Assembly (NCBI GenBank): GCA_947466535.1
Contig: CANIEV010000010.1
Coordinates: forward strand, 1 to 44,305
Direction of reading: 5' to 3'
Length of the DNA stretch: 44,305 bases
Origin: Betaproteobacteria bacterium
GTDB lineage: Bacteria; Pseudomonadota; Gammaproteobacteria; Burkholderiales; SG8-39
Shown: positions 7,483 to 44,038 of the stretch, in pieces
Numbering within the stretch: the stretch's first letter is position 1
Layout: each line of letters starts with the position of its first letter
Program-made: the position numbers and the translations under genes
The notes under the pieces: model-generated
What the model was told of the DNA's origin: nothing
Databases searched by the model: none
What the model saw: only the letters and a program-made list of their open reading frames with translations

Positions 7483-7559
7483 GGATGTGTACTGCAGGGA
7501 CCTGCGACGGGTGATAGGGGCGCACCGGGAGGAAACCCGTGCGCGCCCCGGCTTGCGCG

Positions 7560-8519: not shown

Positions 8520-8544
8520 GGACACTCCTTGTGGGTGGTCAAGT

Positions 8545-9027: not shown

Positions 9028-10358
9028 TCCGGGCTCCCTTTCATCCATCGTTCCCAGGCAGTGAACTGGTTGCGAATGTGCAGTTCGCTCGTGCCGGGTG
9101 CGCTCATCGAGCCGTCGGGCGCGGTGCGGTCGAGGTCGAAGCCGCGCGACAGGTCCACCCAGTCGGTGGCGGCATCTTCCAGCCCACGTTGGCAGCGCTC
9201 GAAGATATCCAGATCGTCGGCGGCAACCAGCGATCCCGAGGACGCGGCGGCCGTGAGAAAACGCATCGACAGCGCGGTCATTTCATCGGGTGCCCCGTCG
9301 AGCGCGAAGCAGTAGCTTGTGACCACCGTATGGTCTACCGCGACCGGCTGGACCACACGCATCACCTGAAATCGCGAGTTGACGGTTATCGTCGGCCAGA
9401 TCAGGTTGTTGAAGCGGTCCATCGCGAGGATTTCCTGCACCTTCGCTTCGCCGTGTGTCGCGGTAAGTGCGGCGAGGTAGCGCTGGAACACCGGATCCTT
9501 GCGCTCGGCGGCGATTACTCCCGCGCCACGGTAGAAACTGCCCATGTAGGCGTGGCCTCCCGGGTAGCCGTGGATGCCGATTTCGTTCCATTCCGCGGCG
9601 CGCAGGCCGTTTGCAAGCTGCATCTGGACCACCTGGCCAGTCATGCCGGGAAGGTCCGCAGCCTCTCGATCGGCGCGCGCTGCGGCGACCGCGCTCACGT
9701 GAACGATACCCGGGTGTACCTGGTCGGCGGCATTTTCAAGGAAGAACTTCCAGTTGCCGCGGTACTCCATATGCAGACGGCCGCCGGTCTGGGTCAGGCT
9801 GCCTCCGGGGGCGCGGTCCACCATGTTGTCCAGCACACTCGTGATCCCTCCGAGAAACGCGGGGAGGTCGGGGCCGCTCGCGGCGTGAGAGCCGAACACA
9901 AAACCGCGATAGGAGGCGACCCGCGGAACGCGCGCGAGCGATTTGTCGTCGTAGCGGAAATCCTTCGAATAGCCCTCGGGGAGCGGCACGCCGGTGAGGC
10001 TGCCATCGAGGTCGAAGCTCCATGCGTGGTAGGCGCAGGTGAACTGGCGCGCATTGCCGCGCGGCGCGGTGATCACTCGGGCGCCGCGGTGGGTGCAACG
10101 GTTGTGCAGCAGGGCGAGCGAGCGGTCGGCCTGGCGTACCAGTAGCACTTCGTCGGGGCCAAGCCGGGTCAGGAGAAAGTCACCGGGTTTCGGCACCTGG
10201 CTTTCGTGGCCGACGTAGAGCCAGGCACGACGGAATATTCGTTCCTGCTCGGCGGCGAAAATGTCGGGATCGGTATAGACCGAGCGGTGAACCGCTCGCG
10301 GCTGGACAAGATCGGAATACACGCGTTTCACCAGAAAGGATTGCCGGGACGCCCGCAT
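9024..10358 (-). CDS. Rieske (2Fe-2S) aromatic-ring-hydroxylating dioxygenase alpha subunit
   Basis: Rieske motifs CTHRGA and CAYHAWSFDLDG; mononuclear iron motif NAADQVHPGIVH. Confidence 0.94.
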   Translation of the reverse strand: MRASRQSFLVKRVYSDLVQPRAVHRSVYTDPDIFAAEQERIFRRAWLYVGHESQVPKPGDFLLTRLGPDEVLLVRQADRSLALLHNRCTHRGARVITAPRGNARQFTCAYHAWSFDLDGSLTGVPLPEGYSKDFRYDDKSLARVPRVASYRGFVFGSHAASGPDLPAFLGGITSVLDNMVDRAPGGSLTQTGGRLHMEYRGNWKFFLENAADQVHPGIVHVSAVAAARADREAADLPGMTGQVVQMQLANGLRAAEWNEIGIHGYPGGHAYMGSFYRGAGVIAAERKDPVFQRYLAALTATHGEAKVQEILAMDRFNNLIWPTITVNSRFQVMRVVQPVAVDHTVVTSYCFALDGAPDEMTALSMRFLTAAASSGSLVAADDLDIFERCQRGLEDAATDWVDLSRGFDLDRTAPDGSMSAPGTSELHIRNQFTAWERWMKGSPE

Positions 10359-23828: not shown

Positions 23829-24608
23829 ATGCACGTTTTCGAAACTCTTCCCTGGTGGGGCTACGCTTGGCTCGCCGTGGTGATGGTGGCCTCGGGTTTC
23901 TTTCACGGACTGATCGGTTTCGGTTTTCCGATCATCGCCACGCCGCTGCTTACGCTGATGTTCGATTTCAAGACCGCGCTCCTGCTGTCGGTTCTGCCTG
24001 GATTCATCACTACCATCCTCAACGCCTTTCGCGGCGGCAATCTCGGGGCGAGTCTCGGACGTTTCTGGTTCATGCCGGCATTCCACCTGACTGGCGCATT
24101 TCTCGGCACGCTCATCCTGATACGCGCGCCGTCCGAGCCGTTCATCCTGCTGCTCGCGGTTTTGCTGGTGCTCTATCTGTACCGGGAGCGGCTCGGCAAG
24201 CTGGACGTGCCGGTGGTGAAGGCGCACTGGATTGTTTTCGGCGCCGCCGCAGGGCTTGCGGGCGGAATATTCGAAGCGACGGCCAACGTGGCGCTTGCAC
24301 CGCTGATCATCTATTTCATGATTCTCGGGGTTGCGCCCGCCGCACTCGTCCAGGTACTGAACCTGTGCTTCATGTTCGGCAAGGCGACCCAGATTGTCAC
24401 CTGGACGACGGCGGGCAACGTGCCGCTCGGATTCTGGCTCCAGTGCCTGCCCTGGGCCCTGTTGTCGCTTATCCTGCTGCTTGCGGGCGAGCGCATCCGT
24501 CGGCGGGTGTCGGTCGAGACCTACATGGGGTGGTTGCGCAAATTTCTCTGGGCGATGGTTGCGCTGCTGATCGTCGGTTTTATGCGTGCGGTGCTGGAGA
24601 AGTCATGA
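23829..24608 (+). CDS. TSUP (TauE/SafE) family permease
   Basis: [59 protein letters not shown]; about 8 TM segments. Confidence 0.9.
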
Positions 24609-25318
24609 GAGTGTTCGTATTGCTGATGCTGATGTTCGCGTCCGGTTTCGCCGGCGCGCAGAGCCTGCGCGAGGATCTGTTTCGCGCGCTGGACGACCGC
24701 AACATGTCCGAACTGAAGCGCGTGATCCTCACCGGTGTTCACTTCACGGCGAAGAACGAGGAAGGTGAGCCCCCGCTGTTTGTAGCGGTGGAGAAGGGCG
24801 ACCTTGCGATCGTGTATGTTCTGCTCGAGGAAAAGGTGGACCCCAACGGTCGGACCGCCAACGGAGAAACCGCGTTGCACGCCGCCGCGCTGCATGTCGA
24901 TCCGGCGTTCACCGACCTGTTGCTGCAGCGGGGTGCCGACCCGAAGCTCGCGAATCGGGACGGGGAGACCGCGTTGCACTGGGCCGCGCTTTCCGGGTCG
25001 CTCGAGATGGTCAACCGGCTGGTGGCGCGTGTCGCCAATCCGGGTGCGCCCAACAGCGAAGGCGACACCTCGCTGCACATGGCGGCGGCGGCAGGTCATG
25101 CGGAGATCGTGGCGGTGCTGCTCGAAGCGAATGTGCGCAAGGTCGTTCGCAACAAGGCGGGCAAGACGCCGCTGGATCTGGCGATTGCGAATGAACATTT
25201 CGATGTGGTCAAGTTGCTCGGCGGCGCGCCTGCCCCTGTCCGATCGAAAGACCCGAACGCGAATCCGGGGCCGGTGCCCGCCGCCGTTCCCGCGGCCCCT
25301 TCCGCGTCGCCGCGTTAG
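24605..25318 (+). CDS. Secreted/periplasmic ankyrin-repeat protein
   Basis: Signal peptide [20 protein letters not shown]; repeats NGETALHAAALHVDPAFTDLLLQRGADP, DGETALHWAALSGSLEMVNRLV, EGDTSLHMAAAAGHAEIVAVLLEA, AGKTPLDLAIANEHFDVVKLL; start overlaps TSUP stop (ATGA). Confidence 0.93.
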   Translation: MRVFVLLMLMFASGFAGAQSLREDLFRALDDRNMSELKRVILTGVHFTAKNEEGEPPLFVAVEKGDLAIVYVLLEEKVDPNGRTANGETALHAAALHVDPAFTDLLLQRGADPKLANRDGETALHWAALSGSLEMVNRLVARVANPGAPNSEGDTSLHMAAAAGHAEIVAVLLEANVRKVVRNKAGKTPLDLAIANEHFDVVKLLGGAPAPVRSKDPNANPGPVPAAVPAAPSASPR

Positions 25319-25399: not shown

Positions 25400-25427
25400 G
25401 AATTTCCAAATTCCGTGGAATATTCCA
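25400..25427. promoter_or_regulatory. Palindromic candidate operator upstream of ABC operon A
   Basis: GAATTT-CC-AAATTC (25400-25413) followed by TGGAATATTCCA (25416-25427); contains TTCCAAATTCC, also found at 32411. Confidence 0.5.
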
Positions 25428-25550
25428 TTTCGGGTGATGCCCGTTGGCCAACATTCGATGGGCAGGAGTGTGCACGGTTCTTGCAGATGAGTGGATCACA
25501 GGCGCCGGACGATTCTCCGGCGCGGTCCAGATACCCACCAGGAGATCGTC

Positions 25551-26621
25551 ATGCAGCGCTCGAACAAATCCCGCTCCGCGCAGTACCCCGGCCTTGCCTC
25601 GTCGTCGCGCCGCAACCTTCTCAAGGGTGCGGGTGCTGCCGCGCTCGGCGCTGCCCTGCCACCCATCGGCATTCTCGGCATGGGCGGCGAGGCCTGGGCA
25701 CAGTCGCTCAGGTCGGTGAATTTCCAGCTTTCCTGGATCAAGAGCATCCAGTACGGCGGCTATTTCGCCGGGATCGAAAAGGGCTTTTTCAAGGACGCGG
25801 GCATCGACCCGACGTTCAATTCCGGCGGTCCGAACATAGACCCTGTTGCGAACGTGGCGAGCGGTAACTCGGTGATTGGCGACCGGCCGATCGGTCCGCT
25901 GCTCATCGCGCGTGAAAAAGGCATTCCGATCAAGGTGATCGGCACGGTGTTTCAGAAAAGCCCGTACGCGTTCATGAGCGCCGGCTCCAAGCCGATCCGG
26001 ACGATAAAGGAACTCACGGGCAAGACGATTGCGGTGTCCACCTCCGGCCGGCCGCTGGTGCAGAACCTTCTCAAGGAACACGGCGTCGACCTGAAGAGCG
26101 TGAATCTGGTTCCAGCAGCGCCGGATCCCGGTGCGCTGGTGACTGGCCAGATCGATGCCTATAGCGGCTATTCGACGAACCAGGGCGTGATGCTGCAGAC
26201 GCGCGGCTTCGATGTGCATGTTCTGGAGGTGCACGACCTCGGCGTTCCCGAGACCGCGGGTACGATCTATGTTCGCGAGGATTACCTCAAGACCAACCGC
26301 GACGACGTGGTGCGCTTCATGCGCGCGGCGATCCGTTCCTGGACCTGGGCGCTGGACAATCCCGAGGAAACCGCCAGGCTGATGGTGGAGAAGTACGGTG
26401 CGCCCGGCCTCGACTACAAGGCGCAGCTAGCGGAGATCAAGGCGAGCAAGCCCTACATTATTGCCGGGCCGGTGCAGAAACAGGGCATGCTCACGCTTGA
26501 TCTCGACCTGTACACGAAGATTATCGACCTTTATCGCAAGGTCGACATGATCAAGAGCCCGATGAGCGCTAAGGATCTCTGCGACCCGAGCGTCGCGATC
26601 GACGCCAACAAGAAGGCCTGA
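25551..26621 (+). CDS. ABC transporter substrate-binding protein, NMT1/THI5-like (NitT/TauT type), Tat-like signal
   Basis: SSRRNLLKGAGAAALGA Tat-like signal; SVNFQLSWIKSIQYGGYFAGIEKGFFKDAGIDPTFNSGGPN. Confidence 0.92.
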   Translation: MQRSNKSRSAQYPGLASSSRRNLLKGAGAAALGAALPPIGILGMGGEAWAQSLRSVNFQLSWIKSIQYGGYFAGIEKGFFKDAGIDPTFNSGGPNIDPVANVASGNSVIGDRPIGPLLIAREKGIPIKVIGTVFQKSPYAFMSAGSKPIRTIKELTGKTIAVSTSGRPLVQNLLKEHGVDLKSVNLVPAAPDPGALVTGQIDAYSGYSTNQGVMLQTRGFDVHVLEVHDLGVPETAGTIYVREDYLKTNRDDVVRFMRAAIRSWTWALDNPEETARLMVEKYGAPGLDYKAQLAEIKASKPYIIAGPVQKQGMLTLDLDLYTKIIDLYRKVDMIKSPMSAKDLCDPSVAIDANKKA

Positions 26622-26668
26622 ACGGGCCTGGAAGGAGAAGACATGGCAAGGAAGGCAGGTTTTCCTCG

Positions 26669-28141
26669 ATGAACGATTTGGCACCGCATATTTCGGCGCG
26701 GCTTCTCGATCCGCGCGGCGGCTGTTCTGTGTGCCGTCGCGCGAGCATCGGCTGGAGCGGTTCCAGCTTTACGGCGGTGGACGATCTTGCTGCGGGGCAC
26801 CCCGCCGACTCGGGATCGTTCTTTGCCATGCCGCCGCTTGCCAATGCGCACGATCATGTGCGCGGCGTGCGCCCCACCGCGCTCGGTGCCTACGACCTGC
26901 CGCTGGAACTCTGGCAGATCAACATGACCGGCAGCCCAAGCGCGGACCCGTACCTCGTGAATGTCGCAGCGCTCGGGCGTTCTGCGCTCGGCGGAACCGG
27001 TTCGGTGATGGTTCATTACACCCGGCCGCAGAACCGCACGCGGATCGTGCAGGAACTCGAGACCGTGGCACGCGCGGCCAACGATGTTGGCATCCGCGTC
27101 TGTGTGGCGGTTGCGCTGCGGGATCGTTACCCGATCGGCTACGCGCCGGATGAAAAGCTGATCGCTCTGCTCGATCCCGCCGATCGCGACCGGGTGCGCG
27201 ACAAGCTGGTGTTCGCCTCCGATTCGCCGCAGTCCCAGGTGGCGATGGTCGAGGACCTCGCGGCGAGAATCGAGAGTCCGACGGTCACGGTGCAGTTCGG
27301 CCCGTACGGCGCCGAGTGGTGTTCCGATGCGCTGTTGCGGCTGATCGCCGAACGTTCCGCGATCACCGGCCGCCGGGTGCACATGCACCTGCTCGAATCC
27401 CGCCTGCAGCGCGAATTCCTCGATTCGATCCATCCCGATGGTGGTCCGGTGAAGTATCTCGATTCGATCGGCATGCTCTCGCCCCGGCTGTCGGTGGCGC
27501 ATGCGGTCTGGTTGCGTCCCGACGAGATGGAACTGCTTGCGGAACGTGGTGTTACGGTGAGCGTCAATTCCAGTTCCAATCTCACGATCCGATCCGGCAT
27601 TGCACCGGTGCGCGACATGCATCGCGCCGGCGTGCCGCTCGCGATGGGCATGGACGGTTTCTCGGTTGACGACGACGACGACGCCTTTCGCGAACTTCGT
27701 CTCAACTACATGTTGCATCGCGGGGTCGCGATCGACGAAGGCTTGCCGCTCGGCGAGTTGTATCGCTTTGCGAGCTACGGCGGTCGGCGCTCGGTCACCG
27801 GGCGCGAGGAGGGCGGGGGTATCGCTGCGGGCGAACCCGCGGATCTCGCAGTTCTCGACTACGCGGGCATGTCGCGCGACCTGATCACCGACGGCCCGGG
27901 CGAGGCATCGCTCGTGGTAACGCGCGCGACCATGCGCCACCTCAAGCGCCTGGTGATCGCAGGCGAGGATGTGGTCGTCGATGGTCGTCTCGCCCGGGTT
28001 GATCTGGACGAGGTGCAACGCGAACTCGATGCCCAGGTTCGGGTAGCGGCCCCCGGCTTCCTTGAATGGCAGCAGGTGGCGCGCAGGCTGCGCGAGAAGC
28101 TTCGCGGCTTTTATTCGGCCGGACTGCATACCTGCGGCTGA
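26669..28141 (+). CDS. Amidohydrolase-superfamily protein (cytosine deaminase/aminohydrolase-like)
   Basis: 490 aa; metal motifs NAHDHVRG, HMHLLES, SVAHAVWLRPDE, VSVNSSSNLTIRSG, MGMDGFSVDDD. Confidence 0.85.
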   Translation: MNDLAPHISARLLDPRGGCSVCRRASIGWSGSSFTAVDDLAAGHPADSGSFFAMPPLANAHDHVRGVRPTALGAYDLPLELWQINMTGSPSADPYLVNVAALGRSALGGTGSVMVHYTRPQNRTRIVQELETVARAANDVGIRVCVAVALRDRYPIGYAPDEKLIALLDPADRDRVRDKLVFASDSPQSQVAMVEDLAARIESPTVTVQFGPYGAEWCSDALLRLIAERSAITGRRVHMHLLESRLQREFLDSIHPDGGPVKYLDSIGMLSPRLSVAHAVWLRPDEMELLAERGVTVSVNSSSNLTIRSGIAPVRDMHRAGVPLAMGMDGFSVDDDDDAFRELRLNYMLHRGVAIDEGLPLGELYRFASYGGRRSVTGREEGGGIAAGEPADLAVLDYAGMSRDLITDGPGEASLVVTRATMRHLKRLVIAGEDVVVDGRLARVDLDEVQRELDAQVRVAAPGFLEWQQVARRLREKLRGFYSAGLHTCG

Positions 28142-28177
28142 CTCCGATTTTCCCGATGATTCTCACGGACTGAAACC

Positions 28178-28993
28178 ATGTCGCTCGCGATCGATGTCAG
28201 GCAGGTCACGATGCTCTTCGATACCAAGGGGCAGCGGGTGATCGCGCTGGAGAAGACCGATCTTGCGATTCCCGCCGGCCGCTTCGGGTCGATCATCGGG
28301 CCGAGCGGTTGCGGAAAATCGACCCTGCTGCGGCTGGTCGCGGACATCATGCAACCCTGGTCGGGGACGATCAACGTCGGCGATGCGCCGCCTCGTCAGG
28401 CGCGTCGTGATCACGCGATCGGTTTCATTTTCCAGAGCCCGACCCTGTTGCCCTGGCGCTCGGTGCGGGAGAATGTGGAACTGCCGCTGGACATTGTTGG
28501 CCGGACGAGCGCGCGGGCGGCCACGCGCACGCCGGCGGAACTGATCGAACTTGTCGGCCTCAAGGGATTCGAGAACTCGCTGCCTTCCCAGCTTTCCGGC
28601 GGCATGCAGCAACGGGTTGCGATCGCGCGTGCCCTGGCACTCGAACCCGAAGTGCTGCTGCTCGATGAACCCTTCGGTGCGCTGGACGAGATCACGCGTC
28701 AGCGGATGAATCTCGAACTGCTGCGAATCTGGGCCGAATCCGGAACCACCGCATTGCTGGTGACCCACTCGATTTCAGAGGCGGTGTTCATGTCCGATAC
28801 GGTCTATGTGATGTCGCCGCGTCCGGGGCGGATCACAACCACGCTCGACATCGAGCTGGCGCGGCCTCGCGAGCTCGGGATGATGCGCACACAGGCGTTT
28901 TTCGAGTCGGTGAACAAGGTGCGTGACGCCCTGTTCGGCCGCGAAGCCGGGTCGCTTCCCGATGGTGCCCCGGCGCCGGTCGAGACCTACTGA
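28178..28993 (+). CDS. ABC transporter ATP-binding protein (NitT/TauT/SsuB type)
   Basis: Walker [10 protein letters not shown], signature LSGGMQQR, Walker [15 protein letters not shown]-loop VTHSISEA. Confidence 0.97.
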
Positions 28994-29001
28994 GCCGCAG
29001 G

Positions 29002-29796
29002 GTGACGATCGCGACTTCGCCGGCATCCGTTCGCCTTCGCCGCCTGGCGCTTGCGCTCGCGCCGGTGCTGGCGGTGATCCTCGCTCTTGGCCTCGCTGAA
29101 TTCCTGCAGGCTCGCGGCGCCCTTCCGGTGGTGATCCCCGCACCCTCGGCGGTCTGGGCGGATGCGGTGAAGAATCCGGCGGTGGTGACGCGCCACCTCA
29201 CGCCGACTGTGCTCAAGGCGCTCACCGGCTATGCGATCGCGGCCGGCATCGCGCTCTTGGCTGCGGCGGTCGCGAGCATGGTGGTCGTTCTGCGCGCCCC
29301 GATCTACAACCTTGGGGTCGGATTGCACAGCGTGCCGCTGATTGCGACCACGCCCCTGCTCGCCCTGTGGCTGGGCACCGGCCCGCCGACGCATGTGCTG
29401 GTCGCTGCACTTGCGTGCTACTTCCCGATGCTGGTGGGCGCGATGCAGGGCTTTCGTGCGGTGGAGCGCACGCGGCTCGAGTTGTTCCACACGCTCTCGG
29501 CCTCGCCGCTGCAGCAGTTGCGCTATCTCGTGATCCCGAGCGCGCTGCCGTATCTGTTTGCCGGGTTCAAGATCGCCGCGCCGTCGGCGGTGCTTGGCAC
29601 CATCACCGCGGAATGGGCGGGCGCGGAACTCGGGCTGGGCGCGCTGATGCTCTATGCGCTTGGCGCCTTCGACATCAACAAGGTCTGGCTTTCGGTGGTG
29701 CTCGCCTGCGGCCTGTCGGCAGCGGCCTACGCATTCTGGGCGCTGGCCGAACGTCTGGTGATCTACTGGGAATCCTCGACGGAGTTGAAGGACTGA
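29002..29796 (+). CDS. ABC transporter permease (NitT/TauT type), first of two
   Basis: 264 aa polytopic; FFHTLSASPLQQLRYLVIPSALPYLFAGFKIAAPSAVLGTITAEWAGAELGLG EAA-type loop (leading residue LELFHTL); GTG start. Confidence 0.92.
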   Translation: MTIATSPASVRLRRLALALAPVLAVILALGLAEFLQARGALPVVIPAPSAVWADAVKNPAVVTRHLTPTVLKALTGYAIAAGIALLAAAVASMVVVLRAPIYNLGVGLHSVPLIATTPLLALWLGTGPPTHVLVAALACYFPMLVGAMQGFRAVERTRLELFHTLSASPLQQLRYLVIPSALPYLFAGFKIAAPSAVLGTITAEWAGAELGLGALMLYALGAFDINKVWLSVVLACGLSAAAYAFWALAERLVIYWESSTELKD

Positions 29797-30596
29797 TGAG
29801 CGACGCTGCCACGCCGGGCCATGCCAGGCCCCCCCGTCCGCTTGTCGAGCGATTTGTAGTGCGGGTGATCTGGATCGTTCTTGCAATCGTCGCAATCGCG
29901 ATCCTCTGGCAGGGTGCGATCGAGGCGTTCAAGCCGCCAGCCTATCTCATACCAACACCATTCGGCGTGCTGCAAGCGTTCTCGGAAAAGCAGGACACGC
30001 TCGTGCATCACGCGAGCTATACCTTCAGTTCCGCGCTGCTCGGCCTTGTCGTATCGAGCGTGTTCGCGATATCGCTGGCGGTGCTGTTCGTGAGCTTTCG
30101 CATGTTTGCGCAGGCCTCGATGCCGCTGGTGATTGCCTTCCGCTCGATGCCTGCCGCCGCGATTGCGCCGCTGATTACGCTCATGGTCGGCCGGGGTGTG
30201 GGCACCAATATCGTGGTGGTGGTGCTGGTGTCCTTCTTCCCGATCCTGGTCAACCTGATGCGAGGGCTCCAGGCGCCCGATCCGACCACGCTCGAGCTCA
30301 TGCACGTGTACGGCGCCTCCCGCTGGCAGCAGATCCGCATGTTGCGCGCGCCGTTCTCTCTGCCGTATTTCTTCACCGGGCTGCGGATCGCAGGTGCCAA
30401 TGCGATACTGGGTGCGATGCTTGCAGAATGGCTGACCGGTTCGCGCGGACTCGGTTACCTGATTCTCGAGTCGGGGGAGTTGCGCGAAATCGAGCTGCTC
30501 TGGGCAGCGATCCTGACTTCCGTCTCGGCGGCGTTGCTGGTATTTGCGGTGACGGCCACCGCCGAGCGATCGGTGCTCCACTGGAGGGAACAATGA
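29796..30596 (+). CDS. ABC transporter permease (NitT/TauT type), second of two
   Basis: 266 aa polytopic; LMHVYGASRWQQIRMLRAPFSLPYFFTGLRIAGANAILGAMLAEWLTGSRGLG; start overlaps previous stop. Confidence 0.92.
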   Translation: MSDAATPGHARPPRPLVERFVVRVIWIVLAIVAIAILWQGAIEAFKPPAYLIPTPFGVLQAFSEKQDTLVHHASYTFSSALLGLVVSSVFAISLAVLFVSFRMFAQASMPLVIAFRSMPAAAIAPLITLMVGRGVGTNIVVVVLVSFFPILVNLMRGLQAPDPTTLELMHVYGASRWQQIRMLRAPFSLPYFFTGLRIAGANAILGAMLAEWLTGSRGLGYLILESGELREIELLWAAILTSVSAALLVFAVTATAERSVLHWREQ

Positions 30597-31528
30597 ACAA
30601 GCAACACGAGCTGAAGGCCACTCCCCGCTCGGTGCACTGGGGCTACTTCGATGCTGCGCTGCCGCCGGTGCTGGAGATCGGCTCGGGCGATACGGTGGTG
30701 GTCGATACCGTCTCGGGCCAGCCGGACGAACTGCCGGCCCTGCGTACACATGTGTTGCCGGAGCACCTGGAAATCCTCGCCGAAGTGCCGCATTTCCTCG
30801 GGCCGCACGTGCTCACCGGCCCGATCTGGGTGCGCGATGCCGAACCGGGAGATGTACTCGAAGTACGAATTCATTCGGTGAAGCTGCGCCAGCGCTGGGG
30901 TTACAACACGATGCGGCCGCTCAAGGGCACGCTGCCCGACGAATACCCGAAATTGCGCCATTCGCACTTCGACATCGACATCGAATCGAAGACCGGTACG
31001 CTGCCCTGGGGGAAGAAGATCGCGCTCAACCCGTTCTTCGGCGTGATGGGTGTGGCGCCACCGTCGTCCTACGGCAGGATCAACTCGAGCGATCCGCGGG
31101 AGTTCGGCGGCAACATGGATTGCAAGGCGCTCACCGAGGGCTCGACGCTGTTTCTTCCGGTGTTCAACAAGGGGGCGCTTTTCTCGGTGGGCGATGGCCA
31201 CGCGACCCAGGGCGACGGCGAGGTCAATCTCACCGCGCTCGAGACCGCGCTGAACGGCACGCTCGAATTCGTCCTGCACAAGGGCAAGACCTTGCGCTGG
31301 CCGCGGGCAACCACAAAAACCCATTACGTCACGATAGCGATGGATCCGGATCTGGACGACGCGGCGAAGATTGCGTTACGCGAGATGATCGCGTGGATCA
31401 CCGAAATGTCGGGCCTGTCGCGGGAGGACGCGTACATGCTCTGCAGCCTCGCCTGCGACCTGCGGGTGACGCAACTCGTCACCGCGAACAAGGGCATCTA
31501 CGCGATGCTGCCGAAGGAATTGCTGTAG
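30593..31528 (+). CDS. Acetamidase/formamidase family protein
   Basis: 311 aa; GPIWVRDAEPGDVLEVRIHSVKLRQRWGYN, FFGVMGVAPP, FGGNMDCKALTEGSTLFLPVFNKGALFSVGDGHATQGDGEV. Confidence 0.95.
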   Translation: MNKQHELKATPRSVHWGYFDAALPPVLEIGSGDTVVVDTVSGQPDELPALRTHVLPEHLEILAEVPHFLGPHVLTGPIWVRDAEPGDVLEVRIHSVKLRQRWGYNTMRPLKGTLPDEYPKLRHSHFDIDIESKTGTLPWGKKIALNPFFGVMGVAPPSSYGRINSSDPREFGGNMDCKALTEGSTLFLPVFNKGALFSVGDGHATQGDGEVNLTALETALNGTLEFVLHKGKTLRWPRATTKTHYVTIAMDPDLDDAAKIALREMIAWITEMSGLSREDAYMLCSLACDLRVTQLVTANKGIYAMLPKELL

Positions 31529-32318: not shown

Positions 32319-32390
32319 CCCTTGTCCTCTCATTGCGCCGGTCTGGTGTACTTCGATGCGGACTTGCACTAATCCGGTAATTCGCCGAGG

Positions 32391-32421
32391 ATTTGGAAAT
32401 TCAGGGAAAATTCCAAATTCC
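32391..32421. promoter_or_regulatory. Palindromic candidate operator between gntR and ABC operon B
   Basis: ATTTGGAA (32391-32398) - 12 nt - TTCCAAAT (32411-32418), perfect 8-bp arms; contains TTCCAAATTCC at 32411-32421. Confidence 0.55.
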
Positions 32422-32563
32422 TGATCTTCCGGCATCTTTGTCTCATGACCTGCCAGTGGCCGTCCCCGGATTCGGCTTTCCCACTGGAACGGTGTTAAGG
32501 GCACGCATTTTGCGTGCCACGAAGTCACCGGGCTGCCCCGGCACTTCTAAAGAGAGGTTACCC

Positions 32564-33619
32564 ATGCTCCGCGCGTCGTCGATTCCCGCAAGCCTTCGCA
32601 TTGTCTTCGCCACGGTGCCGTTGTTCGCCGCGCTTGCCGCGTTCCCCGGTCACGCTTTTGCGCAGTCCTCGCCCAGGGTGAAGATGGTTCTCAACTGGAA
32701 ATACCAGGGGCCGCAGGCCTGGTTCTTCATCGCCCAGGACAAGGGCTACTTCAAGGCCGAGGGCGTGGATATCGATCTTGACCAGGGCGAAGGGTCGGGG
32801 GCGCCCGTGGGCAAGATCGCCTCGGGGGCCTATAACGCGGGCTTCGGCGACATCAATGCCATCATCAACCTCGCGGCCATCAAGCCGCAGGATGCGCCGG
32901 TGGGCGTGTACATGATGTACAACATCCCGCCCTTCGTGATCGCGGCGAAGAAATCTTCCGGCATCAGGACGCCGAAGGATCTCGAAGGCAAGACACTCGG
33001 CGGCGCAGGCAACGATGCGGCGCTGAAACTGTTCCCCGCCTTTGCCAAGCTCGCGAAGATGGATGCCTCGAAGGTGACCATCACCAACATGGCGCCCAAC
33101 CTGCGCGAACAGATGCTGCAGCGCGGCCAGGTGGACGCGGTGTTCGGGTATGTGAACACGATCTGGTTCAGCGCCAAGCCGCTTGGCATCGATCCGGAGA
33201 AAGATCTCGTCTGGCTCAAGTACTCCGACTACGGCATGGACCTCTACAGCAACACGATCATGGTGTCCAAGGCGCTCGCGAAGGATCACCCGAAGGTGGT
33301 GAGCGGCATGTTGCGCGCGCTCAACCGCTCGATCGCCGAGGTCGCGAAGAACCTCGAGCCCGGTATGGACGCTGTGATGAAACGCGAACCGCTGCTCAAT
33401 CGCGGCATCGAGAAGGAGCGCCTTGTAGCCACCCTCAAGAACGAGATGTCGCATCCCGAAATCAAGGAGATCGGCTTCGGTGACGTGAAGGACGACCGCC
33501 TCAAGCGCGCAATCGCCCAGGTGGTGGATGCCTACGGCCTGCCACGCGCGCCGTCCAACGCGGAGGTGTTCGACCGTTCCTTCCTGCCGCCCAAGGCGGA
33601 TCGGATGTTCGCGTTTTGA
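32564..33619 (+). CDS. ABC transporter substrate-binding protein (NitT/TauT type), second system
   Basis: Signal peptide, then SSPRVKMVLNWKYQGPQAWFFIAQDKGYFKAEGVDIDLDQGEGSGAPVGKIASGAYNAGFGDINA. Confidence 0.93.
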   Translation: MLRASSIPASLRIVFATVPLFAALAAFPGHAFAQSSPRVKMVLNWKYQGPQAWFFIAQDKGYFKAEGVDIDLDQGEGSGAPVGKIASGAYNAGFGDINAIINLAAIKPQDAPVGVYMMYNIPPFVIAAKKSSGIRTPKDLEGKTLGGAGNDAALKLFPAFAKLAKMDASKVTITNMAPNLREQMLQRGQVDAVFGYVNTIWFSAKPLGIDPEKDLVWLKYSDYGMDLYSNTIMVSKALAKDHPKVVSGMLRALNRSIAEVAKNLEPGMDAVMKREPLLNRGIEKERLVATLKNEMSHPEIKEIGFGDVKDDRLKRAIAQVVDAYGLPRAPSNAEVFDRSFLPPKADRMFAF

Positions 33620-34452
33620 GCACGGCATTCGTAGAACTCGCCGGCGCCAGCCTGCGCTACGGCCGGCGCGGCGGCACGGGAACGCTGGCTCTTGCCGATG
33701 CGAGCATGAAGATCGCCGAGGGCGAATTCTCGGCGATCGTCGGCCCGAGCGGCTGTGGCAAGTCCACCGTGCTCAAGCTGGTGTCGGGCCTGATGCGCGC
33801 ATCGGGTGGCAGCGTGATCGTCGACGGACGCGAGGTGGCGGGGCCGGCAAAGGCACTTGTCGGCATGGCCTTCCAGAACCCGACCATGCTTCCCTGGCTC
33901 ACCATCCTCGACAATGTGATGATTCCGATGCGCATCGTCGAGCCTTACCGCAGCACCTGGCGAGACAAGCGTGACGAATACGAGGCGAAGGGGCTCGAAC
34001 TGCTGAGGACGGTCGGTCTCAAGGGATTCGAGAGAAAGCACACCTGGGAACTCTCCGGCGGCATGCTGCAGAGGGCATCGCTGGTGCGCGCGCTGATCCA
34101 CGAACCGCGCCTGCTGCTGCTGGATGAGCCCTTCGGTGCGCTGGATGCGTTCACCCGCGAGGATCTGTGGGCGGTGCTGCAGGACCTGTGGATAGCAAAG
34201 CGCCCGACGGTGATTCTGGTCACCCACGATCTTCGTGAGGCGGTGTATCTCGCCGACACCGTGTATGTGATGAGCGCGCGTCCCGGCCGGCTGCTGGATG
34301 TGCGCCGCTCGCCGTTTCCCCGGCCGCGCACGCTCGCCACAACGTTCGAGGACGAGTTCGTGCACGTCACGCAGGCGCTGCGCGTCCAGATCGGCGAGGC
34401 GCGCCTTGCGCAGTTGACCACCCAGGCGGCCGATCCGGCCGCCGCCATCTGA
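33616..34452 (+). CDS. ABC transporter ATP-binding protein (NitT/TauT type), second system
   Basis: Walker [50 protein letters not shown] start overlapping the upstream stop. Confidence 0.96.
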   Translation: MSTAFVELAGASLRYGRRGGTGTLALADASMKIAEGEFSAIVGPSGCGKSTVLKLVSGLMRASGGSVIVDGREVAGPAKALVGMAFQNPTMLPWLTILDNVMIPMRIVEPYRSTWRDKRDEYEAKGLELLRTVGLKGFERKHTWELSGGMLQRASLVRALIHEPRLLLLDEPFGALDAFTREDLWAVLQDLWIAKRPTVILVTHDLREAVYLADTVYVMSARPGRLLDVRRSPFPRPRTLATTFEDEFVHVTQALRVQIGEARLAQLTTQAADPAAAI

Positions 34453-34459
34453 GACGTCC

Positions 34460-35233
34460 ATGGACGATCCTTCTTTCTTGCGGCGCAGCTTCCCCTGGCT
34501 GTTCGCGATAGGCCTGTTTCTCCTGTGGGAGATACTCTGCCGCGCGTTCGGCGTGTCGGATGTGCTTTTGCCCAAGCCGACCCAGGTGCTGAGCGTGCTG
34601 TACGAAAAGCGTGCCGCGCTTGCGCCGCATGCCATCCAGACGCTGCTCACCACGCTTGCGGGCTTTGTCGGGGGGGTGCTGATCGGCATCCTGCTCGGCG
34701 TGGCGATCGGTTCGTCCCGCCTGGTGTACGACGCGGTGTATCCGCTGCTCGTGGGCTTCTACAGCATCCCGAAAGTCGCGGTGGTGCCGATCTTCGTTGT
34801 CTGGTTCGGCAGCGGCACCGTCCCCGCGGTGCTGACCGCGCTGGTGATCTGCATCTTCCCGGTGGTGGTTAATGTGGCCACGGGTCTTGCCACCACCGAG
34901 CCGGAACTGGAGGACGTGCTGCGCGCGCTCGGCGCGAGCAAGCGCGACATCCTCTGGCGGGTCGGCCTGCCGCGCGCGCTGCCGTACCTGTTTGCCTCGC
35001 TCAAGATTGCGATCTCGCTCGCCTTCGTCGGTTCGGTGTTGTCGGAGACGGTCGCGGCGAACCGCGGCATAGGCAACATGATGGTGCTTGCAAGCGGCAA
35101 CTTCGACGTGCCACTCGTGTTCGCGGGGCTGGTGATACTCGCGGTGATGGGCATCTCTTTCTACGCGGTGTTCGCGTGGCTCGAGGCGAGGTTGACAGGC
35201 TGGGCTACGCGGAAGAATGAGTTCGCGAATTAG
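34460..35233 (+). CDS. ABC transporter permease (NitT/TauT type), second system
   Basis: 257 aa polytopic; LEDVLRALGASKRDILWRVGLPRALPYLFASLKIAISLAFVGSVLSETVAANRGIG. Confidence 0.94.
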   Translation: MDDPSFLRRSFPWLFAIGLFLLWEILCRAFGVSDVLLPKPTQVLSVLYEKRAALAPHAIQTLLTTLAGFVGGVLIGILLGVAIGSSRLVYDAVYPLLVGFYSIPKVAVVPIFVVWFGSGTVPAVLTALVICIFPVVVNVATGLATTEPELEDVLRALGASKRDILWRVGLPRALPYLFASLKIAISLAFVGSVLSETVAANRGIGNMMVLASGNFDVPLVFAGLVILAVMGISFYAVFAWLEARLTGWATRKNEFAN

Positions 35234-35244
35234 GAAGTGTCTGA

Positions 35245-35267
35245 ACAAGGGGGCGATGCCCCCTTGT
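35245..35267. repeat. Hairpin element copy 1 (ACAAGGGGGC-gat-GCCCCCTTGT)
   Basis: Perfect 10-bp stem with 3-nt loop; related hairpin at 36206-36227. Confidence 0.8.
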
Positions 35268-35386
35268 ATATCCGCCACTCCAGAGGGATGCTCAGTTCGA
35301 TTCGTTGCACAATCGGGACTTGATCAGAGCTTCCTTGGGAATGTGCCCGGCACGCGGCACTTGAAAAACGAAACGACGGAGTGAGG

Positions 35387-36172
35387 ATGGAACTCAAAGA
35401 CAAGGTGGCGCTTATCACCGGACCGGCGAAAGGCATGGGAGCCGACGTATCGCTCGCGCTCGCTCGCGAAGGCGCGGATCTGGTGTTGGTGGGCCGCGAC
35501 ACGGCGGCGATCGAGCCGGTGGCGGCGCAGGTGCGAGCACTCGGCCGTCGCGCGATCGTCGCGCGTTGCGACGTGACCAATGAGGCCGAGGTGACTGCGG
35601 CGGTCAAGGCGGGCGAGAAGGAATTCGGCCGCATAGACATCCTGGTGAATATCGCCGGCGGCACCGGACCGGTGGAGAAAAAGGGCTGGGAGACCACTGG
35701 CGCGGAGTTCGATGAAATCGTCGAACTCAATATGAAGGGCTGCTTCCTCACCATGCAGGCGGTGCTGCCCGGCATGATGGCAAGGCGCTACGGCAAGATC
35801 TGCAATGTCGGTGGCACCTTCGGACTGCGCGCCGCGCCCGGACGCATGGCCTACAGCGCGTCCAAGTGGGGATTGCGTGGCATCACCAAGACCTTTGCCT
35901 TCGAGGCGGGGCCGTTCAATATCAATGTCAATTGCGTCGCGCCCGGCATGGTCGAAGGCCCGCGCTTCACAGGAAAAGTGTTGCCGGCCAAGGCTGCGAA
36001 GGCAGGCGTTAGCGTGGAGGAGGCCCGGCGGCAGTACGAAGAGAACTACGCACTGCGTCGCATCACCACCGGCGAGGACGTCGCGAACGCGGTCGTGTTT
36101 CTGGTGAGCGAAAAATCAAGACAACTCACCGGCGTCGATCTGCCGGTGGACGGGGGATGGGCTTCACTATGA
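35387..36172 (+). CDS. SDR-family NAD(P)-dependent oxidoreductase
   Basis: MELKDKVALITGPAKGMGADVSLALAREGADLVLVGRD...ILVNIAGGTG...YSASKWGLRGITKTFAFE...VDLPVDGGWASL. Confidence 0.94.
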   Translation: MELKDKVALITGPAKGMGADVSLALAREGADLVLVGRDTAAIEPVAAQVRALGRRAIVARCDVTNEAEVTAAVKAGEKEFGRIDILVNIAGGTGPVEKKGWETTGAEFDEIVELNMKGCFLTMQAVLPGMMARRYGKICNVGGTFGLRAAPGRMAYSASKWGLRGITKTFAFEAGPFNINVNCVAPGMVEGPRFTGKVLPAKAAKAGVSVEEARRQYEENYALRRITTGEDVANAVVFLVSEKSRQLTGVDLPVDGGWASL

Positions 36173-36205
36173 ATCTGCGCTATCTGAATCTGGACTGGGG
36201 GATTT

Positions 36206-36227
36206 ACAAGGGGGTGTGCCCCCTTGT
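36206..36227. repeat. Hairpin element copy 2 (ACAAGGGGG-tgtg-CCCCCTTGT)
   Basis: Perfect 9-bp stem; flanks match the reverse complement of copy 1 flanks (GGAT-TACAAGGGGG...CCCCCTTGTTC...CAGACA). Confidence 0.8.
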
Positions 36228-36237
36228 TCCTGTTCTC

Positions 36238-36291
36238 AGACAACTCACCGGTGTTGATCTGCCGGTCGATGGTGGATGGGCCTCGCTATGA
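36238..36291 (+). pseudogene. 3'-terminal remnant of a second SDR gene (RQLTGVDLPVDGGWASL*)
   Basis: 47 of 54 nt identical to the 3' end of the adjacent SDR gene, encodes the identical 17-aa C-terminus; no upstream SDR body. Confidence 0.8.
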
Positions 36292-37700
36292 CAAAAGTTG
36301 ACTACGTCATCCGCGGTGGGCAGGTGGTGTCACCGACAGCGACGATCCATGCGTCGGTGGCGGTGCACGAGGGCAGGGTGGTGGCGGTCGGCGAGGATGC
36401 GTTGATGCCCCCTGCGGCCGAGATCATCGATGCGACCGGAAAGTTCGTTATCCCCGGCGCGATCGACTCGCACGTTCACTTCCGCACCCCGGGCTACGAC
36501 TACAAGGAAGACTGGCATACCGGCACCGGCGCGGCCGCGCGCGGCGGCGTGACCACGGTGCTGGAGATGCCCAACACCAACCCGCCCACCGGCACGCTAG
36601 AGGCGCTGCGCCAGAAGCAGGCGATCGCGAAAGCGCAGGCGCTCGTTGACTACGGCATCTACGGCCTTCTAGATGAAAACAACATCGGTCAGCTCGAGGC
36701 GCTGATCGACGCCGGGGTTTCCGGTTTCAAGTGCTTCATGGGCAACACCTTCGGCGACCTGCCCGCGCCCTCGGATGGCGCGATGCTCGAAGGCTTCGAG
36801 ATTCTTGCGCGGCGCGGCATGCGCTGCACGGTGCACGCGGAGAATTTCTCCATCATGGCGCGGCGCCAGGCGCAAATGGAAGCGGCCGGCCGCACCGATG
36901 CGCAGGCGCATCTCGCCGCGCGTCCCGAGGTGTGCGCGATCGAGGCGGTGAGCCGCGCGGTGATCTTCGCCGAGTGGACCGGTGCAAGGCTGCATATCGC
37001 GCACAAGAGTTCGGGCGATGCGCTCTATCTGCTGCGCGATGCCAAGCGTCGCGGCGTGGATGTCACGGTGGAGACCTGTCCGCAGTACCTGTTGCTCGAC
37101 ACCGGGGACATGAAGCGGCTCAAGGGCATTCTGCGGGTGAATCCGCCGATCCGCGACCCCGAGCATCCGCCGCAGCTCTGGGCGGCGCTGAAGGAGGGCC
37201 TGATCGACATGATCGCCACCGACCATGCGCCGCACAGCCCTGAGGAAAAGACCCGCGAGAACATCTGGAAGTGCGACTGCGGGTTTCCCGGCGTGGAGAC
37301 GCAGATGCCGATCATGCTGACGGAGGTCAACAACGGCAGGCTCACGCTGCAGGACTATGTTCGCATCTCCAGCTTCAACCCGGCGCGCGCCTGGGGATTT
37401 TTCCCGAGAAAGGGCGCAATCCAGCCTGGCGCGGACGCCGACATCGTGCTGGTGGACATGGCCGCCGAACGCACCATCGACCAGGGTTCGCTGTTTTCCA
37501 AGAGCAAGATCACGCCCTGGCACGGACGCAAGGTGAAGGGGCTGCCGATGCTCACCATGGTGCGCGGCAAGGTGGTGATGAAGGACGGCAAGATCCTCGC
37601 CGAACCGGGCTGGGGCAAGCCGGCGGTGCAGGAGATGCCTGCGCCCGCGCCGCGAAACACCCACAAGACCAGCGCCGCGATCGTCGCGTTCAAAGGCTGA
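36288..37700 (+). CDS. Cyclic amidohydrolase, dihydroorotase/allantoinase/dihydropyrimidinase family
   Basis: MTKVDYVIRGGQVVSPTATIH...GAIDSHVHFRTPGYDYKEDW...GFKCFMGNTFG (candidate carbamylated Lys)...IATDHAPHSPEEK; start overlaps the SDR remnant stop (ATGA). Confidence 0.92.
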   Translation: MTKVDYVIRGGQVVSPTATIHASVAVHEGRVVAVGEDALMPPAAEIIDATGKFVIPGAIDSHVHFRTPGYDYKEDWHTGTGAAARGGVTTVLEMPNTNPPTGTLEALRQKQAIAKAQALVDYGIYGLLDENNIGQLEALIDAGVSGFKCFMGNTFGDLPAPSDGAMLEGFEILARRGMRCTVHAENFSIMARRQAQMEAAGRTDAQAHLAARPEVCAIEAVSRAVIFAEWTGARLHIAHKSSGDALYLLRDAKRRGVDVTVETCPQYLLLDTGDMKRLKGILRVNPPIRDPEHPPQLWAALKEGLIDMIATDHAPHSPEEKTRENIWKCDCGFPGVETQMPIMLTEVNNGRLTLQDYVRISSFNPARAWGFFPRKGAIQPGADADIVLVDMAAERTIDQGSLFSKSKITPWHGRKVKGLPMLTMVRGKVVMKDGKILAEPGWGKPAVQEMPAPAPRNTHKTSAAIVAFKG

Positions 37701-37704
37701 GGCG

Positions 37705-38868
37705 ATGGCCAACAGGGACACACCCGACCGCGAGCTGTTCGGCATCCTTTCCGAGCTGATCGCGATTGATTCGACGTTTCCGCCGGGCGACACCCGCCGC
37801 ATTGCCGACTGGGCGGCAGCACGGCTGGCACGTGCGGGCTATGCAACCGAAACCGTGGCGGGCGTGCCGGAGATGTCGAACGCGGTCGCACGCCTTGGCA
37901 GCGGCAAGCCATCGCTTGTCTTCAACGTGCATTACGACACCATCGGCCCCGGCGAACGTGCGGCCTGGTCGGGTGATCCGTTCAAGGCGGAGCTTCGCGA
38001 TGGCCGTATCTACGGACTCGGTGCGGGGAATTGCAAGGGACCAATGGCGGCGCAGGTCTGGGCTGCAGAGGAAGTTGCCCGTCGCGGCGGTCCTGCGCGC
38101 GGCGAGCTGGTTTTCACTTTCGTCGGCGACGAGGAGAGCCTCGGCGAGAACGGTCTTGCACTCCTGCGCGCTCGCGGCATCGTCAGGCCCGACATGCTTG
38201 TGGTAGGCGCGCAGACCGAAAACCAGCTGATCATCGCCGAGCGCGGCGTGCTCTGGACGAAGATCCGCACCCGGGGCCGCGCGGCACACGCCGGCCTCGC
38301 GCCCGAGGGGGACAGCGCGATCCTGCGCATGATGCGGGTGATTGCGGCGATCGAGCGCGATTTCGCGCCGAAGATCGCGCAGCGGCGCTCCGGCACGCTG
38401 CAGGCGATGATCAACATCGGCCGTATTCGCGGCGGCAGCAACACGAACGTGGTGCCCGATTTCTGCGAGATCGAGGTCGACAGGCGCCTGGTGCCGGAGG
38501 AAACGGTGGAGGGCGCGCTGGCCGAACTTGAGCAGGCAGCGCTCGCCGCGGGCGAACCTGCGGGCACGGTGGAAGTCGAGCGCATCACCGGCACCCGAGG
38601 TTTTCGCGGCAGCGAGAGCGGGCCCTGCGTGCGTGCTTTTGGCGAAGCGATCTCTGATCGCACCGGAAAGCCCGCGAAATTCCTCGACGTGGTGGGCGTG
38701 TTCGACGGTCGCTGGTTTGCGGGTGACGGCATCGAGATACTCGATTTCGGCCCGGGCGAGGGCGCCGAAGGCCACAAGCCCAACGAATCGATGCCGCTGG
38801 ATCAGCTGGTGGATGCGGCGCTCATCCAGGTGGATGCGATCGGGTCGCTACTTGGTCTTCGTAAGTAA
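37705..38868 (+). CDS. M20 family metallopeptidase/amidohydrolase (ArgE/DapE-like)
   Basis: NVHYDTIGPGE, GLGAGNCKGPMAAQVWAAEE, FTFVGDEESLGENG, RGRAAHAGLAPEGDSAI. Confidence 0.93.
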   Translation: MANRDTPDRELFGILSELIAIDSTFPPGDTRRIADWAAARLARAGYATETVAGVPEMSNAVARLGSGKPSLVFNVHYDTIGPGERAAWSGDPFKAELRDGRIYGLGAGNCKGPMAAQVWAAEEVARRGGPARGELVFTFVGDEESLGENGLALLRARGIVRPDMLVVGAQTENQLIIAERGVLWTKIRTRGRAAHAGLAPEGDSAILRMMRVIAAIERDFAPKIAQRRSGTLQAMINIGRIRGGSNTNVVPDFCEIEVDRRLVPEETVEGALAELEQAALAAGEPAGTVEVERITGTRGFRGSESGPCVRAFGEAISDRTGKPAKFLDVVGVFDGRWFAGDGIEILDFGPGEGAEGHKPNESMPLDQLVDAALIQVDAIGSLLGLRK

Positions 38869-42048: not shown

Positions 42049-42888
42049 TCAAAGCGCCCCCGCCGCGAACGTATTGCAGTCCCGCGTCCGGCCCGAGTCC
42101 AGGCCCTTTTTGAACCAGCGCACGCGCTGCTCGGACGATCCGTGGGTAAAGGATTCGGGCACGACGCGGCCCTGGCTTTTCTGCTGCAGGCGGTCATCGC
42201 CAATGGCGGTGGCGGCATTGAGCGCTTCGGCGATGTCGCCCGGGTCCAGTTGATTCAGGGTGCCGGCATGGTTGCCCCAAACGCCGGCGTAGCAGTCGGC
42301 CTGCAGTTCCATGCGCACCGACGTCTGATTGGCTTGCGCTTTGGAGGCGCCCTCGCGCGCGCTCGCCATCTTCTGGAAGGTGCCGGTGAGCTTCTGCACG
42401 TGATGTCCCACTTCGTGCGCGATCACGTAGGCCTGTGCAAAGTCGCCCGGGGCCCGAAAGCGGCTTTGCAACTCGCGGAAGAACGCGAGATCGATATAGA
42501 GTTTCTCGTCGCCGGAGCAATAAAAGGGGCCGGTGGCGGATTGCGCCATGCCGCAGGCGGAACGTACCTGCCCGTCGAACAGGACCAGGGTGGGCGGACG
42601 GTACTCGGCGTTCGACTGCTCAAAGATCTTGCCCCAGACGGCTTCGGTGCTTCCGAGGACACGGGCGACAAACTGACCCGTCGCGTCGGCGGGTGCGCCT
42701 TTGGTCACTTTCCTCGTCTCGGCCTGGGGCATGACCTGTTCGGCCACATTCATCACCGTGCTCGGGTCGAACCCCAGGAAGTAGGCGACGACGGCAATCA
42801 CGATGCCACCGACGCCCAGGCCGCCGCCAATGCCGATGCCGCGCCGGTCTTCGACATTACTGCTGGGCTGCTGGTCGCCTAGTTGCAT
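42049..42888 (-). CDS. Neutral zinc metallopeptidase (YpfJ-like)
   Basis: N-terminal TM anchor after GIGIGGGLGVGGIVIAVVAYFLG; AYVIAHEVGHHVQ metal motif; MELQADCYAGVWG. Confidence 0.92.
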   Translation of the reverse strand: MQLGDQQPSSNVEDRRGIGIGGGLGVGGIVIAVVAYFLGFDPSTVMNVAEQVMPQAETRKVTKGAPADATGQFVARVLGSTEAVWGKIFEQSNAEYRPPTLVLFDGQVRSACGMAQSATGPFYCSGDEKLYIDLAFFRELQSRFRAPGDFAQAYVIAHEVGHHVQKLTGTFQKMASAREGASKAQANQTSVRMELQADCYAGVWGNHAGTLNQLDPGDIAEALNAATAIGDDRLQQKSQGRVVPESFTHGSSEQRVRWFKKGLDSGRTRDCNTFAAGAL

Positions 42889-43024
42889 CGATGTTGCGCC
42901 TCAATGGGGTAGGGGGATACGCGAGGCTGCTGATGAATCGCTAATTACAGTACTTGTGCCGGTTCGCAGACACCGTGCGCCAGCGCGCACAATGGCGGTT
43001 GTCACGACCAACCTGCACTCCAAC

Positions 43025-44038
43025 ATGAAATTATCGGTACTCGACCAATCAAGCGCCTCCAAAGGCAAGACCCAGGACGTGGCGATCCGCGAGACCCTCG
43101 CGCTCGCGCGTCATTGCGATGCCCTCGGTTACAGCCGTTACTGGGTGTCGGAGCATCACAACTCCGGAAACATCGTCGGCACCGCGCCCGAGGTGCTGAT
43201 GGCGGCGATTGCCGCCACCACGCAGCGAATCCGCGTCGGCAGCGCCGGCATCATGCTGCCGCATTACTCGGCGCTGAAGGTGGCCGAACAGTTCCGGGTG
43301 CTCGAGGCGATCGCACCCGGCCGGATCGACATGGGCGTGGGCCGCGCACCGGGATCGGACCAGCTCACCGCGCGGGCGCTGAATCCGCATCCGGACAACG
43401 TCGAAGACCACTTTCCTCGCCAGGTGCAGGAACTGCAGTACTGGGTGTCGGGCACGACCTTGCCGGAGGGGCATCCGTTTCGTCGCGTGGTGGCCAGCCC
43501 CACCGGACCGACGACCCCCGACCTGTGGATGCTCGGCAGCTCCGACTACGGCGCGCAACTCGCGGGCTACTTCGGCCTGCCCTATGCCTTTGCGTATTTT
43601 TTTGCGGAGGGCGTAGGCGTTGAGCAGGCGCTGGATCTGTACCGCAAGAACTTCCGCCCAAGTGCGTTGTACCCGAAGCCCAAGGCCACGATCTGCGTCT
43701 GGGCGCTTGCCGCCGACACCGACGAGGAGGCGCAGTGGCAGTTCAAGAGCCGCGAACGCTCGAGCATCGATCGTGATTTTGGCATCCGCCTGCCGCTGAT
43801 ACCGCCCGAGGAAGCCGCGGCGCGGGTGCTCAATCCCGCGGAGCAGGCGATATCCGAGCGACTGCGACGCAAGGCGATCATCGGGTCGGCCGCCACCGTG
43901 GCCGAGAAGCTGAATGATCTGGCAAAAAAGCTCGATCTGGACGAACTGGTGATCGTGACCTGGACCTATGATCCGGAGCCAAGGCGGCGTTCGTACGAGC
44001 TGCTGGCGGAGGCGTTTTCCCTCCCGAAGGCCGGGTAA
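43025..44038 (+). CDS. LLM class flavin-dependent oxidoreductase (luciferase-like)
   Basis: MKLSVLDQSSASKGKTQDVAIRETLALARHCDALGYSRYWVSEHHNSGNIVGTAPEVLMAAIAATTQRIRVGSAGIMLPHYSALKVAEQFRVLEAIAPGRIDMGVGRAPGSD. Confidence 0.95.
   Translation: MKLSVLDQSSASKGKTQDVAIRETLALARHCDALGYSRYWVSEHHNSGNIVGTAPEVLMAAIAATTQRIRVGSAGIMLPHYSALKVAEQFRVLEAIAPGRIDMGVGRAPGSDQLTARALNPHPDNVEDHFPRQVQELQYWVSGTTLPEGHPFRRVVASPTGPTTPDLWMLGSSDYGAQLAGYFGLPYAFAYFFAEGVGVEQALDLYRKNFRPSALYPKPKATICVWALAADTDEEAQWQFKSRERSSIDRDFGIRLPLIPPEEAAARVLNPAEQAISERLRRKAIIGSAATVAEKLNDLAKKLDLDELVIVTWTYDPEPRRRSYELLAEAFSLPKAG

Follow-up and report, generated by a model that had tools for sequence, protein, structure and literature searches.

The locus examined here raises the question of which regulator reads an inverted repeat lying between a divergently oriented gntR gene and an ABC transporter operon (operon B), and which genes such a regulator would govern. 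The window, meaning the whole stretch of 44,305 nucleotides of DNA that was analyzed, contains ATTTGGAA-N12-TTCCAAAT at 32391–32418, with perfect 8-bp arms at 32391–32398 (ATTTGGAA) and 32411–32418 (TTCCAAAT); the surrounding sequence, 32390–32421, is GATTTGGAAATTCAGGGAAAATTCCAAATTCC. An initial annotation had described these arms, the N12 spacer, and arm centers 20 bp apart, all of which are confirmed in the sequence. It had also noted that the promoter of a second ABC operon (operon A) shares TTCCAAATTCC, which indeed occurs in exactly two copies in the window, at 25404–25414 in the operon A promoter and at 32411–32421. The shorter TTCCAAAT is found three times against 0.52 expected, and the longest string common to the two promoters is the 12-nt GAATTTCCAAAT, present in opposite orientations and reached in 1.2% of shuffles. 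By itself, the 8-N12-8 palindrome is moderately unusual and not compelling: the exact form appears in 0.5% of dinucleotide shuffles of the 245-bp gntR/operon B intergenic region, and any perfect inverted repeat of at least 8 bp with a spacer of 0–20 appears in 6% of them.

The product of gntR combines an N-terminal GntR winged helix with a C-terminal FCD domain (Pfam GntR 56.7 bits, FCD 75.3 bits, both over cutoff), the domains of the GntR/FadR-FCD subfamily. Its nearest named family is CsiR/GlaR, the glutarate repressor of E. coli and P. putida; it is 38% identical to E. coli CsiR, and CsiR is its best NCBIfam match, although the PRK11534 score of 156.1 bits falls under the curated equivalog cutoff of 218. 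In P. putida, CsiR represses a divergent operon, gives several EMSA complexes, and protects two regions (PMC6667623). Unlike the CsiR systems, the window has no csiD or lhgO among the neighbors examined, which encode ABC transporters, amidohydrolases, FmdA, M20, and SDR proteins (Table 1). Operon A spans 25551–31528, the start of its first gene having been picked via the ribosome-binding site, and operon B spans 32564–38868. The operon B amidohydrolase scores 384 bits, exceeding the AllB cutoff of 357.85. Since gaps of 147 and 103 bp precede the SDR and amidohydrolase genes, respectively, transcription of every operon B hydrolase from one promoter is only plausible. Operon A is preceded by an ankyrin-repeat protein gene (23855–25318), and operon B is followed by a luciferase-like monooxygenase gene (42803–44038).

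Table 1. Genes, predicted operator units, and possible promoter elements in the window
Feature	Positions	Strand	Evidence or remark
gntR, FCD-type GntR regulator, CsiR-like, 240 aa	31596–32318	−	Pfam FCD 7.5e-21, GntR 1.8e-15
Operon A gene 1, NMT1/SsuA-like substrate-binding protein, Tat signal	25551–26621	+	Pfam NMT1 8e-46, TAT_signal
Operon A genes 2–6: amidohydrolase (8-oxoguanine-deaminase-like), ABC ATPase, two permeases, FmdA/acetamidase	26669–31528	+	
Operon B transporter: NMT1 binding protein, ABC ATPase, permease	32564–35233	+	
Operon B enzymes: SDR, allantoinase/hydantoinase-type amidohydrolase, M20 ArgE/DapE-type hydrolase	35381–38868	+	
Operator unit A (predicted), AATTTCCAAATT	25401–25412 (center 25406.5)	+	Only exact copy in the 4.63-Mb genome
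Weak second unit at operon A, ATATTCCATTTC	25420–25431 (center 25425.5)	+	7/12 by eye; 19 bp from unit A
Weak third site B unit, AATCCGGTAATT	32371–32382 (center 32376.5)		9/12 match to AATTTCCAAATT
Operator unit B-left (predicted), AATTTCCAAATC	32390–32401 (center 32395.5)	−	11/12 match to operon A site
Operator unit B-right (predicted), AAATTCCAAATT	32408–32419 (center 32413.5)	+	11/12 match; 18 bp from B-left
Possible sigma-54 promoter, operon A, GTGCACGGTTCTTGCA	25470–25485	+	14/16, one invariant G of GG lost
Possible sigma-54 promoter, operon B, GGGCACGCATTTTGCG	32499–32514	+	13/16, GG-N10-GC present; weak alone

The recognition unit is better parsed as a 12-bp near-palindrome, AATTTCCAAATT, with the halves AATTTC and CAAATT. 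The initial description of the element as spanning 20 bp, about two helical turns, holds for the 8-bp arms, but the repeating unit is this 12-mer, and its centers at the gntR/operon B site (site B) are 18 bp apart. At operon A, the unit sits within a perfect 6-2-6 palindrome, GAATTTCCAAATTC (25400–25413). A weaker third site B unit lies on the gntR side, 19 bp from B-left, at the expected spacing. The palindrome first noticed therefore corresponds to the outer portion of a tandem array whose steps are 19 and 18 bp. None of 20,000 shuffles reproduced the joint arrangement, in which promoter A holds a palindromic 12-mer and promoter B holds two or more 11/12 copies of it spaced by 18/19 bp. When the 4.63-Mb genome was searched with WTTSSAAW-N10-WTTSSAAW, the site B tandem was the only match with no mismatch; the corresponding 19-bp pattern with up to one mismatch gave three matches, the promoter A pair among them. 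No operator unit of 8/12 or better was detected in those internal gaps of operons A and B that were checked, the 147- and 103-bp gaps included.

A wider AATTTCCAAATT regulon in the same genome was considered and rejected. Among the 16 genome matches to AATTTCCAAATT within one mismatch, three are the promoter units described above and eight are copies of another 12-mer, AATTGCCAAATT; the others are single copies, several of them apparently coding. The AATTGCCAAATT copies lie on contigs C40, C174, C185, C50, C66, C220, C265, and C330, and in the three that were inspected (L095, L100, and L101, from C40, C174, and C185) the 12-mer belongs to an inverted repeat, TTGCCAAATTTRGCAA, which looks like a small repeat element or the site of another regulator.

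The nearest gntR homologues within the same family reach at best 43–44% identity (98 family genomes), and no orthologue was retrieved at E ≤ 1e-60 from 369 genomes of the class; footprinting therefore used relatives from other groups. Eighty relatives were fetched. Upstream of gntR, CsiR-like FCD GntR relatives (38–54% identical) have clade-specific 12-bp palindromes: ATTTTCGAAAAT in Bradyrhizobium and Shinella, RTTGTCGACAAY at Kaistia-like loci, ATAATCGATTAT in Billgrantia, and AAAATCGATTTT in Salinicola and Halomonas. A second copy, defined by a match of at least 9/12, occurs at exactly 18 or 19 bp in 28 of the 66 loci with such a palindrome, a count that includes related strains and is thus not one of independent cases; shuffling of the flanks gave a mean of 0.2 and a maximum of 2 in 200 trials. 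The 18/19-bp spacing recurs in Bradyrhizobium, Shinella, Halomonas, Zobellella, and Oceanospirillaceae, with additional copies clustering at 37–38 bp. Site B of the window has the same arrangement, at least two 12-bp units 18/19 bp apart near gntR (one step of 18 bp and a weaker one of 19 bp). In the tree, the window GntR is tentatively placed with the array-bearing Kaistia and Halomonas groups (support 92/82), on a long branch and in no starred clade. Ten Bradyrhizobium loci (L052, L059, L063, L066, L067, L076, L078, L081, L084, and L090) display the same ATTTTCGAAAAT palindrome on both flanks of gntR, near 9910 and 10740.

The closest GntRs (49–54% identity) come from Kaistia dalseonensis, K. 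hirudinis, Prosthecomicrobium pneumaticum, and a Bosea MAG (L011, L013, L014, and L017), and in all four loci the operon A transporter, the SDR, and the amidohydrolase also have homologues. Units stepped at 18/19 bp precede the operon that lies downstream of gntR in every one of these loci; they also precede the operon A homologue in three, the fourth having one unit there. Before gntR itself, a strong unit has a weak companion, 37 bp away in three loci and 30 bp away in the remaining one. This four-locus pattern is the best evidence that one GntR may control a transporter operon, an enzyme operon, and itself. The loci resemble the window in their shared gene set and in having sites near all three promoters, but they differ in half-site letters, and their gntR is divergent from an amidohydrolase gene rather than from a transporter. 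Four genomes from the family to which the window belongs served as a negative control: each has orthologues of the amidohydrolase and the M20 hydrolase, one has the SDR as well, and none has a gntR homologue at E ≤ 1e-50. No AATTTCCAAATT-like site was present near those orthologues. Triple ATTGTYGACAAT-like arrays at 18/19 bp were observed before the operon following gntR in L011 (10600–10950), L013 (10660–10960), and L017 (10620–10960); in L013, the first product of that operon resembles, by eye, a pyroglutamyl-peptidase.

How the window units relate to characterized operators can be judged from the FadR subfamily, whose sites are normally TKGT-N2/3-ACMA, the G being contacted by the Arg at HTH position 28 (PMC4494728). 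The same study reads paired sites that lie centrally in a divergon, at a short and constant distance from each other, as a sign that both operons are controlled cooperatively (Suvorova et al. 2015; PMC4494728). FadR-subfamily (FCD) operators are, as in the window, short A/T-rich palindromes beside gntR, with a divergent promoter and close double sites. The window differs in having TT/AA in place of the GT/AC pair and in arraying its units at 18/19 bp. The TKGT/ACMA boxes, common though not universal in the FadR/FCD subfamily, are absent from the AATTTCCAAATT units, whereas the Kaistia operator, ATTGTCGACAAT, retains GT-N2-AC. Since NanR and BioR are known exceptions to these boxes (PMC4494728), the missing GT/AC does not exclude the window GntR from the subfamily. 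The window protein and the relatives shown with it appear to lack the Arg that contacts the G, a lead only, given a hand alignment with helix numbering by eye; the apparent loss is consistent with A/T at those operator positions in the window. The initial annotation had noted that the motif is unlike TNGTNNNACNA, and its letters do differ, but the site belongs to a recognizable variant found across this GntR clade, with A/T-rich arms around a 2-bp center. NanR, itself an FCD GntR, loads as three dimers on a repeated (GGTATA)3 operator (PMC8012715); its repeats are direct half-site repeats, unlike the 12-bp palindromes at 18/19 bp of the window. The E. coli csiD promoter was also tried as a template and set aside, as it is without a palindromic 18/19-bp array.

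On this comparative footing, the adjacent CsiR-like FCD GntR regulator very probably uses the palindrome as a tandem operator, predicted to serve gntR, operon A, and operon B. The proposal of the initial annotation that one GntR regulates both ABC operons and itself thereby gains support, and a local, two-operon, autoregulated GntR regulon is well supported as a prediction. Local gene control of this sort is ordinary, and the system is of a known kind. Observed directly for the array are its sequence, its genome-wide uniqueness, its conserved spacing, and its co-occurrence with the gene. Regulator dimers would bind the 12-bp near-palindromic units, 18–19 bp apart and probably cooperatively, so that two or three dimers could fill an array; the gntR/operon B array would serve gntR autoregulation and operon B, and the matching array at 25401–25431 would serve operon A. 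We infer this binding, as well as a repressing and not an activating role, the type of inducer, and any added sigma-54 nitrogen input. Judging from the behavior of the GntR family, the regulator without ligand would most likely keep gntR and both operons repressed, and a carboxylate-type pathway substrate or intermediate may bind the FCD domain and release it. Several features temper the proposed tandem operator: identity to the nearest relatives is only about 50%, and it is the architecture of their operators, not the letters, that matches the window (ATTGTCGACAAT vs AATTTCCAAATT); the window units have a CC center where those of relatives mostly have CG; and the second operon A unit is weak (7/12).

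The alternative that survives best concerns promoter type and is compatible with the tandem operator. Here, sigma-54 together with a nitrogen-control activator would be the main switch, and the GntR array would block or activate from upstream instead of covering a sigma-70 promoter. A scan for sigma-70-like promoters found none in the operon A and operon B promoter regions, and scoring against the sigma-54 consensus TGGCAC-N5-TTGC with GG-N10-GC returned one candidate element in each (Table 1). The operon A homologues of the Kaistia/Prosthecomicrobium/Bosea loci all have a 15–16/16 element; in three of the four, it follows the last unit by 27.5 bp. The window elements are weaker, at 14/16 with a broken GG and 13/16, and sigma-54-like matches across the whole window are no commoner than in shuffles. 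The operon B element, readable on both strands, is moreover overlapped by a GC-rich perfect inverted repeat, GGCACGCA-TTT-TGCGTGCC (32500–32518), immediately before operon B, and is also part of this hairpin. Because the matches are not enriched and the operon B element is also a hairpin, sigma-54 control of the window operons is possible but weak rather than established, and sigma-54 as the main switch is regarded as a tentative option. A near-perfect TGGCAC-N5-TTGCT directly follows GntR-type units before the NMT1 transporter operon in L011 (1776–1838), L013 (1846–1908), and L017 (712–774), where nitrogen control combined with a substrate-specific GntR is possible.

It is unlikely that the array is the operator of a different regulator, either a paralogous FCD GntR or an unrelated factor, with the adjacent GntR binding elsewhere. 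Three paralogues in the same genome, 38–41% identical, could in principle bind, and the CC-centered units match the letters of no relative exactly. However, the exact unit occurs nowhere else in the genome as a promoter array, and the architecture and position agree with those found for the relatives of this GntR. Upstream of one of the paralogues (L002) lies a distinct array, a AATCGATT pair whose members, read by eye, are 19 bp apart, and this points to a separate specificity. Equally improbable, or slightly more so, is that the single 8-N12-8 palindrome is the recognition element, contacted by one GntR tetramer or dimer through arms 20 bp apart: the arms are perfect, but operon A has no 8-N12-8 element and yet has the 12-mer, which recurs at 18/19 bp in relatives and as a third site B unit at 19 bp. 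A chance palindrome with no regulatory role, for which the 6% of region shuffles might speak, is already disfavored by the joint test, the genome-wide uniqueness, and the spacing conserved in relatives, and is highly improbable.

With the tandem operator preferred, the row of evenly spaced sites is, as far as sequence comparison goes, common to the distant relatives of the regulator. This suggests, as a possibility somewhat short of even, that a branch of CsiR-like FCD GntRs in Alpha- and Gammaproteobacteria uses phased sets of two or three 12-bp palindromes with an 18/19-bp step. Since the step is kept while the letters change between clades, dimer-dimer contacts, and not half-site sequence, would be the conserved feature. 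A step fixed at 18/19 bp across this branch might be new to specialists; a limited literature search returned no description of it for a tandem or FCD operator and no GntR linked with AATCGATT. The operator rule (12-bp unit, 18/19-bp step) could be used to predict regulons of other unannotated CsiR-like GntRs. For the window, it provides a concrete candidate regulon for two NMT1-type transporters and a set of cyclic-amide/ureide-type hydrolases, whose substrate the inducer of the GntR would reveal. In two loci from Halomonadaceae/Oceanospirillaceae (L012 and L035, ~6970–9840), the gntR relative lies beside gamma-glutamyltransferase-like and chromate-transporter-like genes (by eye).
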